Shown here: piece after piece, positions 2,878 to 58,286 of the stretch
Layout of the letters: each line of letters starts with the position of its first letter
How positions within the stretch are numbered: the first letter of the stretch is position 1
NCBI GenBank assembly: GCA_011620345.1
Contig: WOZJ01000057.1
Span: 62,001 to 126,000, forward strand
Reading direction: 5' to 3'
Length of the DNA: 64,000 nt
Source of the DNA: Nitrospirota bacterium
GTDB lineage: Bacteria > UBA2233
Notes under the pieces: generated by a model
What the model was told of the DNA's origin: nothing
The model's database searches: none
Seen by the model: only the letters and a program-made list of their open reading frames with translations
Translations under genes and position numbers: made by a program

Positions 2878-3390
2878 CTAGGGAAGGCAGGCAGGGTCGA
2901 AAACGACCAAGCGCTCTTCGATGCTGAGCTTATGAACGTAAGTATCGAGAAGGGGGATGAGCACTTCGTTTCGGCCCTCGTCCTGAACTACAAGAATGTC
3001 TAAGTTATGCGGCTTCATGACGCGGTTTACGGTTCCAAAATACCTGCCTTGGGTGTCGAAAGCACGGATACCCACTAAGTCGGAGCTGAAGAACTCCCCC
3101 TCTTGGAGTGAAGGTAGGTCTTCTTCGTGTACGAGAAGCGTGGCGCCCCGTAACTTCTCGGCCTGCTCCAGGGAGCATAGCCCCTCAAATTTCAATAGAA
3201 AGCGGCTGCCGTAAGGCTTTGCTGATTCAATCTTCAAGGACAAGCCTTGCACAAGGACACGGGAACCCTCTCGAAATAAATGGCCGTAGTCTGGCACGGC
3301 CTGAACCCAAACCTCGCCCTTTAGCCCTTTCGGCCTATTGATCTGGCCTATCGTCCGAAGATGAGACACCGTTCCATCAGACTTATTCAT
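2878..3390 (-). CDS. rimM: Ribosome maturation factor RimM
   Basis: Assists 30S head assembly by binding S19. The start at 3390 gives 170 residues beginning MNKSDGTVSH; an alternative ATG at 3405 adds five residues (MQRAR). The N-terminal RimM domain (IGQINRPKGLKGEVWV) and the C-terminal PRC-barrel (near SDLVGIRAFDTQGRYFG and NDILVV-like strands) are both present. I favour 3390 because the DNA just upstream looks like foreign, IS-derived sequence, so the extra residues may be accidental. An unusually long 190-nt gap separates it from khpA. Confidence 0.92.
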   Translation of the reverse strand: MNKSDGTVSHLRTIGQINRPKGLKGEVWVQAVPDYGHLFREGSRVLVQGLSLKIESAKPYGSRFLLKFEGLCSLEQAEKLRGATLLVHEEDLPSLQEGEFFSSDLVGIRAFDTQGRYFGTVNRVMKPHNLDILVVQDEGRNEVLIPLLDTYVHKLSIEERLVVFDPACLP

Positions 3391-3526
3391 TCTTGCTCGC
3401 TGCATGAACGAAGCTGACTTCCTGCTTCGTAGAGGCTGGTTTCACGCGGGCCTTGCGGCCTACGTCAGAGCCTTCCTCTCCACAGGCTGACACCGTGGAA
3501 CTCACGGCCAGGTTTCTCAAGTCCAT
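3383..3526 (-). pseudogene. C-terminal tail remnant of an IS200/IS605-type TnpB
   Basis: A 47-codon reading frame beginning MDLRNLAVSSTVSACGEEGS and containing RKARVKPASTKQE. From memory this matches the tail of many IS605/IS1341 TnpB proteins, whose last codons overlap the omega-RNA (reRNA) scaffold. No RuvC or zinc-finger part remains upstream. The frame differs from rimM and ends inside the rimM 5' end. The assignment rests on recognition of the tail, on the odd gap it fills in an otherwise tight operon, and on the hairpins described in the overlapping RNA entry. It could instead be a chance ORF over a leader. Confidence 0.5.
3406..3526 (-). ncRNA. Candidate omega-RNA-like structured RNA in the khpA-rimM gap
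   Basis: On the minus strand this stretch folds into four successive stems. They are CCGTG/CACGG (3493-3507), GTCAGCCT/AGGCtcTGAC (3464-3491), GGCC-GCAA-GGCC with a GNRA loop (3449-3460), and the 7-bp ACGAAGC/GCTTCGT with a 9-nt loop (3408-3430). The segment CTACGAAGCAGGAAGTC resembles the conserved 3' scaffold of TnpB-associated omega-RNAs. The last stem ends 18 nt upstream of the preferred rimM ATG. Whether it is expressed, or is only a decayed transposon end now serving as a rimM leader, cannot be told from sequence. Confidence 0.45.
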
Positions 3527-3555
3527 ATTACATATGAATGCGCCAGAATAAGCAA
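3527..3555 (-). promoter_or_regulatory. Possible sigma70 promoter ahead of the structured leader and rimM
   Basis: On the minus strand TTGCTT (3550-3555) and TGTAAT (3527-3532) are separated by 17 bases. Matches are 4/6 and 5/6. It would start transcription near 3520, just before the hairpin-rich segment, giving rimM-trmD-rplS an internal promoter. Moderate-quality match only. Confidence 0.35.
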
Positions 3556-3580
3556 CTACACCAGAAACTGTTGAACCCCA

Positions 3581-3841
3581 TTAGGCCATAGGCTCGATGA
3601 TCTCGAGGATTGCCCGCTTACGAACCTTGGCGGAGGCTGCCGACAAGATGGTCCGAATGGCTCGAGCCGTTCTGCCGTCTTTGCCTATAACTTTGCCAAG
3701 ATCCTCCTTCGCCACGCTCAACTCCAGGACGCAGCTTCGCTCCCCGTCTACCTCTTGGACGCGTACAGCGTCTGGGTTGTCAACGAGAACTCGCGCGATT
3801 TGCTCGACAAGATCTTTGAGGCTCTGATTTGCAATGGGCAT
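3581..3841 (-). CDS. khpA: KH-domain RNA-binding protein KhpA
   Basis: A small single-KH RNA-binding protein (86 residues). The GxxG loop is in [18 protein letters not shown] in the second half. The ATG at 3841 is chosen over an in-frame TTG two codons upstream because GGAGG sits six bases before this ATG and abuts the TTG. It follows rpsP by 27 nt, as in the conserved rpsP-khpA-rimM-trmD order. In other bacteria KhpA pairs with KhpB/Jag; no such partner is seen here. Confidence 0.92.
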
Positions 3842-3868
3842 TCCCAACCTCCGCTTTGTGGTGGTGCG

Positions 3869-4102
3869 TTACGTAGCCCGCTTGATCAAACTCCTTACCG
3901 TATCCGTAGGTTGAGCCCCTTGGGATACCCAGTAGGCGTAGCGCTCCTTATCGAGCATGACCTCTATGGATTGCTTGAGGGGGTCGTAAAAACCGAGCGC
4001 TTCGATATAATTTCCGCTTGGTGCTTTAGGCTTTTCCTGGACCACGATCCGGTAAAAGGGCCTGTTACGTTTTCCTTTTCGAACGAGACGAATAGAGAGC
4101 AT
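3869..4102 (-). CDS. rpsP: 30S ribosomal protein S16
   Basis: 77 residues, normal for S16. The N-terminal MLSIRLVRKGKRNRPFYRIV and the following EALGFYDPLKQ are diagnostic. It lies 42 nt downstream of ffh and 27 nt upstream of khpA in the SRP/ribosomal operon. Confidence 0.96.
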   Translation of the reverse strand: MLSIRLVRKGKRNRPFYRIVVQEKPKAPSGNYIEALGFYDPLKQSIEVMLDKERYAYWVSQGAQPTDTVRSLIKRAT

Positions 4103-4144
4103 GGAGTAGTTCCTCCTGTTGGAAGATCATAGGAAGGATTGGCT

Positions 4145-57899: not shown

Positions 57900-58266
57900 G
57901 AAGTTAGGGAGGGGGTCGCGAGTTCCACGGAACTCGAGGAAAGTCCGGACTCCAAAAGGCAGGATGGCCGCTAACCGCGGCTCGGGGTGACCTGAAGGAA
58001 AGTGCCACAGAAAAGAAACCGCCCTCGGTGCAAAAGCCTTGGGTAAGGGTGAAACGGCGAGGTAAGAGCTCACCGGTCCTTCAGCGATGAGGGGCGCATG
58101 GCAAACCCCATCCGGAGCAAGACCAAATAGGGAAGGTATGGGATCGCCTGTTCCGGCCGGTAATTCCGGCGCCTTCCGGGTTAGGTCGCACGCACGTTGA
58201 GGCAAAGAGGAATGACCCTCACCCGCCGTTTGGCGGGGACAGAATCCGGCTTATCCCTAACTTTAA
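57900..58266 (+). ncRNA. rnpB: RNase P RNA (type A)
   Basis: Catalytic RNA that trims tRNA 5' ends. Conserved CR-I segment GAGGAAAGTCCGGACTCC, ACAGAAA-GAAACCGCC, GGTAAGGGTGAAACGG, GGTAAGAGCTCACCGG, CCCCATCCGGAGCAAGACC and AAATAGGG, and the 3' GACAGAATCCGGCTTAT are all present. P1 pairs AAGTTAGGG (57901-57909) with CCCTAACTT (58255-58263), setting the ends. It ends about 21 nt before rsmH. Confidence 0.95.
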
Positions 58267-58286
58267 GGCCTTTCGATGTTTCTACG

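Follow-up and report, generated by a model that had tools for sequence, protein, structure and literature searches.

The khpA-rimM locus

The window, meaning the whole stretch of 64,000 nucleotides from a Nitrospirota bacterium that was analysed, carries on its minus strand an operon in the order ffh, rpsP, khpA, rimM and trmD. The khpA stop codon lies at 3583-3581 and the ancestral GTG start of rimM at 3369-3367, and the gap between them compares with 4 nt in a sister genome of the same genus (G001), which is without the intervening segment, and with ~20-42 nt for the remaining gaps of the operon. A sequence-only reading of this DNA had singled out the khpA-rimM gap as unusual, which the comparison bears out, and had described a TnpB-derived segment at 3383-3555; such a segment is present, but its extent is 3369-3575 (Table 1). 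Elsewhere the window holds a class A bacterial RNase P RNA (57900-58268, 277 bits) and, at other positions, four tRNAs, all ordinary.

The unoccupied rimM site in the sister genome reads ATGGGG/TGTCTC (sequence there GATGGGGTGTCTC), and the window has AATGGGG, then 207 bp ending in GGAACGG, and then TGTCTC. Target duplication is absent and GG stands at the junctions (empty ATGGGGTGTCTC in the sister genome versus GGGG...CGG TGTCTC when occupied, with the site on contig C22 alike), and IS607 elements are known to target GG without target duplication (PMC6188088). Since GG both terminates the element and forms the core of the target, the insertion regenerates the GTG start of rimM exactly. The rimM frame extends into the element through in-frame ATGs at 3390 and 3405.

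Table 1. Mini-element, its parts and its flanking features in the window
Feature	Position	Strand	Basis
rimM, host gene	2878..3405	-	Pfam RimM 2.2e-14; frame open into element
Predicted guide, first ~20 nt of rimM (TGTCTCATCTTCGGACGATA)	3349..3368	-	IS607 reRNA boundary (PMC10711439); 20-nt guide (PMC11061315)
Terminal GG, right junction	3369..3370	-	last G is first base of rimM ancestral GTG; IS607 GG rule from PMC6188088
Complete omega-RNA (reRNA) scaffold, ending at transposon right end	3369..3511	-	covariance model R1, 145.3 bits; 39/41 consensus pairs; sub-threshold RAGATH-18
Whole mini-element, 207 bp, between khpA and rimM	3369..3575	-	empty site in G001; right boundary aligned with relatives at GAACGG; copies also at the ends of contigs C60 and C22/C39
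GAAC, 3' strand of predicted pseudoknot with GUUC loop of first stem	3371..3374	-	invariant, 50/50 right ends; PK2 position of ISFba1 reRNA
47-codon ORF, leftover TnpB C-terminal tail overlapping omega-RNA	3383..3526	-	tblastn; stop TAA overlaps in-frame rimM ATG
RAGATH-18-like scaffold core including GCAA-capped stem	3419..3486	-	Rfam RF03064
IS607 left end (TTCAACAGTT...GTTGC...GGCGCATTCATATGTAATATG)	3516..3575	-	corresponds to the tnpA upstream region of full elements; includes promoter-like stretch of the earlier reading
GGGG left flank, GG target core and TAM-like motif	3576..3579	-	ISXfa1 TAM GGG (PMC10711439); ATGGGG also at C22/C39 site
khpA, host gene upstream	3581..3847	-	Pfam KH_KhpA-B 2.3e-25

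Family assignment and the guide-RNA scaffold

The 47-codon minus-strand frame, which the sequence-only reading took for a TnpB tail, found most of its tblastn matches at 61-83% identity (E down to 4e-9), and several of these are the C-termini of annotated TnpB proteins; a Pfam search of the 47-aa frame gave no match. Relatives compared at the DNA level share stretches identical at 28/28 positions and are 79-84% identical over 140 nt. Judged by this similarity, which is beyond chance, the frame is a true TnpB tail, as had been proposed. Three fetched loci (Hydrogenophilus, Acidiphilium and Thiodictyon) have an annotated IS607 transposase upstream of tnpB, and at a Cupriavidus locus the gene upstream of tnpB is annotated as a recombinase. 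The right ends of relatives align with the window to the final base and all terminate in GAACGG or GAGCGG. Aligned to the left ends of 19 full elements, the left end (~55 bp) reached a summed score of 229.5, where shuffled sequences averaged 135.4 (sd 8.4) and rose no higher than 171.5; it is joined directly to the tnpB 3' end and the right end, an internal deletion. Because of the IS607-type right end, left end and GG junctions without duplication, the element is assigned to the IS607 family of serine recombinase transposons and not to IS200/IS605, the family first suggested for it. The serine transposase TnpA, the mark of autonomous IS607 members, is absent from the element, and since no tnpA was found either there or in the assembly, membership is non-autonomous only. 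The candidate promoter that had been proposed at 3527-3555 falls within the transposon left end, and a sigma-70 consensus scan yielded no promoter match.

A covariance model (R1) built on 41 right ends of relatives, with the window left out, aligned to the window segment over its full length (model 1-142/142) at 145.3 bits and an E-value of 2.1e-35, which upholds the earlier identification of the segment as an omega-RNA. The consensus structure from 50 right ends, the window included, comprises 41 pairs, 22 of which show compensatory changes, and contains the GCAA-capped stem; the stems read from the window beforehand, with a GNRA-capped one among them, are borne out by these pairs. The window retains 39/41 consensus pairs, the two exceptions being an A-C in the GCAA-capped stem and an A-A in the final one, and its strand folded by itself gives essentially the same helices (MFE -54.6 kcal/mol, z -2.5). 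The third scaffold stem has one A-A mismatch and a changed loop in both copies readable there. This alteration may or may not matter; in the ISFba1 reRNA, which has a PK2 pseudoknot, the loops of SL1 and SL3 are dispensable (PMC11061315).

None of the 50 aligned right ends, that of the window among them, departs from GUUC in the first-stem loop or from the terminal GAAC. As invariant strands allow no covariation, support for the predicted GUUC/GAAC pseudoknot comes by analogy, through a position matching that of PK2 in ISFba1 (PMC11061315). A further pseudoknot, between the third-stem loop and a strand near the 3' end, was considered and dropped (34/50 compatible versus 27.6 for shuffled partners, max 34). 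With 39 of the 41 pairs and both pseudoknot strands kept, the scaffold is, as far as its predicted folding goes, structurally intact. Rfam searched at its gathering threshold matched nothing at the segment; in a scan that admitted lower scores, the top match was RAGATH-18 (RF03064), full length (1-71/71) with 24.4 bits and an E-value of 0.02, below the gathering value of 44.9. RAGATH-18 is the core of IS607 TnpB reRNAs (PMC11061315).

Copies, mobility and competing explanations

The genome itself contains two further partial matches to the element, both at contig ends. The match on C60 spans 96 bp at 97% identity with the identical left-end/tail junction, and the start of C22 holds the right 54 bp of the element. 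The C22 site is unoccupied in the sister genome (CCATGGGG/CAGCCG), where it also presents ATGGGG. In the window's own genome, contig C39 terminates with the left flank of this site and then TTCCA, the apparent start of a left end. The C60 and C22 matches cannot be two edges of one copy, as the sister genome and C39 place C39 to the left of the C22 copy, and the window, C39/C22 and C60 copies occupy three different sites. The C39/C22 copy is assembled at its edges alone and may be full length. The recurrence of the same deletion junction in C60 indicates that the shortened element itself has moved.

A search for partners in the assembly, whose completeness is 96.8% over 72 contigs and which breaks at these copies, so that absence is not proof, found no match to the IS607 TnpA family and no TnpB with this tail. 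The two TnpB genes that the genome does have (on C40 and C72) were rejected as partners, their C-termini being unlike this tail; the C72 protein matches a cognate-type TnpB weakly (27% identity) and the C40 protein has no match. In the sister genome, contig C34 (L124) carries an IS607-like TnpA/TnpB locus with another tail, and contigs C25 (L125) and C19 (L123) carry related TnpB loci, again with other tails, the tnpB of C25 being broken by a stop and a frameshift.

The element is very probably a MITE-like, non-autonomous deletion derivative of an IS607-family transposon, in which both ends and the complete omega-RNA scaffold were kept while tnpA is gone and only the tail remains of tnpB. The left end represents the region upstream of tnpA with its presumed TnpA sites, the right end doubles as the omega-RNA scaffold, and movement would occur in trans through an IS607 serine transposase. 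The RNA could arise by read-through of the khpA-rimM operon, which runs in the same direction, or from the left end. In ISXfa1 the TAM is GGG and the right-flanking base belongs to the scaffold (PMC10711439), and a guide of 20 nt is described in PMC11061315; by analogy with these systems the guide is predicted to run into the start of rimM, in support of the earlier suggestion. With a cognate TnpB, the empty rimM site (GGGG beside the guide match) would be cut and the occupied site (AACGG) spared, so that retention of the element would be favoured; without a cognate TnpB, the sole effect would be a longer rimM leader. The RNA is most likely a mobile guide scaffold without a nuclease, which would need a cognate TnpB to be provided before it could act here, and because none was found the scaffold is probably idle in this strain.

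Like bacterial IS MITEs, the element is short and non-autonomous, has at least two copies that share a deletion junction and is presumably mobilised in trans; unlike them it has no terminal inverted repeats, which are absent from IS607, and its right end is a guide-RNA scaffold. The left end, the right end GAACGG (as in the relatives found), the GG target, the lack of duplication and the tnpB tail overlapping the reRNA are shared with IS607, IS1535 and ISXfa1, from which the element differs in the deletion of tnpA and nearly all of tnpB and in its size (207 bp versus ~1.8 kb). The scaffold shares its core architecture with the RAGATH-18/ISFba1-type reRNA (PMC11061315), as seen in the full-length, sub-threshold RF03064 match and in GUUC/GAAC at the PK2 position, but it overlaps the TnpB coding tail, scores 24.4 bits versus 44.9 and lacks a TnpB next to it. 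ORF-less IS607-type IStrons such as the BcISt1 variants (PMC4227781) have similarly lost both ORFs and kept their ends; these are 482 nt or more in length, whereas the window element, at 207 bp and with no group I intron among its Rfam matches, is no IStron.

Other explanations were weighed against that of a mobile deletion derivative. The omega-RNA may be kept as a functional solo guide, working in trans with a TnpB encoded in an assembly gap or on a co-resident plasmid or phage, and either cutting empty sites for retention or blocking rimM transcription. This explanation is possible but doubtful. The complete folded scaffold with its conserved pseudoknot strands, the TAM-like GGGG flank at the empty site only and the pairing on one viral contig of a mini-element (L134) with a tnpB-bearing copy (L145) of nearly identical scaffold all argue for it, and against it stand the failure to find a cognate TnpB in the genome assembly, the altered third stem-loop, the putative status of the RNA and the overlap of scaffold and right end, through which retention for transposition alone would be possible. 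It is improbable that the element is a dead IS607 relic, a full element truncated locally and with no further mobility or function, although neither the transposase nor the cognate nuclease was found in the assembly and relatives have many partial tnpB relics. Both ends are intact, and the left-end/tail junction recurs in a second copy (C60) at another site, so the mere dead IS end entertained by the sequence-only reading does not fit.

An origin in the IS200/IS605 family hardly merits consideration, as the TnpB-like tail reflects a homology that spans both families: full-length relatives have IS607 serine transposases and not Y1 TnpA, the GG junctions and left end fit IS607, and RAGATH-18 RNA co-occurs only with IS607 TnpB (PMC11061315). 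The chance that the segment has been domesticated as a rimM leader, either as a structured 5' region or as a source of a new start codon, is also slim, marginally below that of a dead relic. The in-frame ATG codons, one of which is overlapped by the stop of the tail ORF, and the exact regeneration of the GTG start are in keeping with a leader recruited from an IS, but the original GTG is still usable, the GG rule accounts for the exact fit without selection, and the segment is missing from the sister genome and so not conserved at the locus.

Mini-elements elsewhere

The TnpB omega-RNA is normally seen as the 3' end of its own nuclease gene, and the window element shows a route by which guide RNAs could travel without their nuclease. 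Elements of ends and scaffold that lack the nuclease raise the question of whether guide RNAs can be selfish alone, parasitising TnpB made elsewhere. The khpA-rimM copy offers a clean natural experiment in this regard, with an exact empty site in a sister genome, a predicted guide and a predicted target by its TAM-like motif. Annotation pipelines would miss such an element because Pfam does not recognise the 47-codon frame and the RNA scores under the Rfam threshold. ORF-less IS607-type IStrons are already known (PMC4227781), and 64% of RAGATH-18 RNAs adjoin an IS607 TnpB while about a third do not (PMC11061315); the window element is therefore a variation on a known theme.

The survey for similar elements used the TnpB tail as its bait, and the relative rarity of scaffold-less mini-elements is outside its reach. 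Most of the 91 bacterial and plasmid loci with the tail that had enough upstream sequence also had a long tnpB frame, and the relatives include many partial tnpB relics. Independent mini-elements built on the plan of the window element, with both ends and the omega-RNA but no tnpB, were found on the Sulfuricystis plasmid pSTJ2 (L021), at L084 with longer remnants, and on viral contigs (L134/L135, L139 and L146). The viral contig IMGVR_UViG_3300036768_001232 (17.7 kb; L134/L145/L153/L158) holds a mini-element of ~270 bp and a copy with tnpB only (L145), their scaffolds nearly identical, and represents a ready test pair for the use of guide RNAs in trans. A scan of the viral contigs with the left-end pattern returned four genuine left ends, all four with an omega-RNA, which are too few to argue selection. 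It is conceivable, at a tentative level, that mini-elements consisting solely of a left end, an omega-RNA and a right end form a recurrent class whose spread and persistence rely on TnpA and TnpB borrowed in trans, with every copy directing a resident nuclease to the site it would leave empty; the window element would be one case and the viral mini-element beside a tnpB copy another.

Two additional arrangements were observed among the surveyed loci. At L140/L159 (9990-10245), a second omega-RNA scaffold stands at the contig end ~70-100 bp beyond a right-end fragment (GATGAGTAAGTCTGATGGAACGG), an arrangement that nested or tandem elements could have produced. On a Xanthomonas citri plasmid (L020, ~3977-4140), a lone right end with omega-RNA and without tnpB directly follows an IS3-family insertion.
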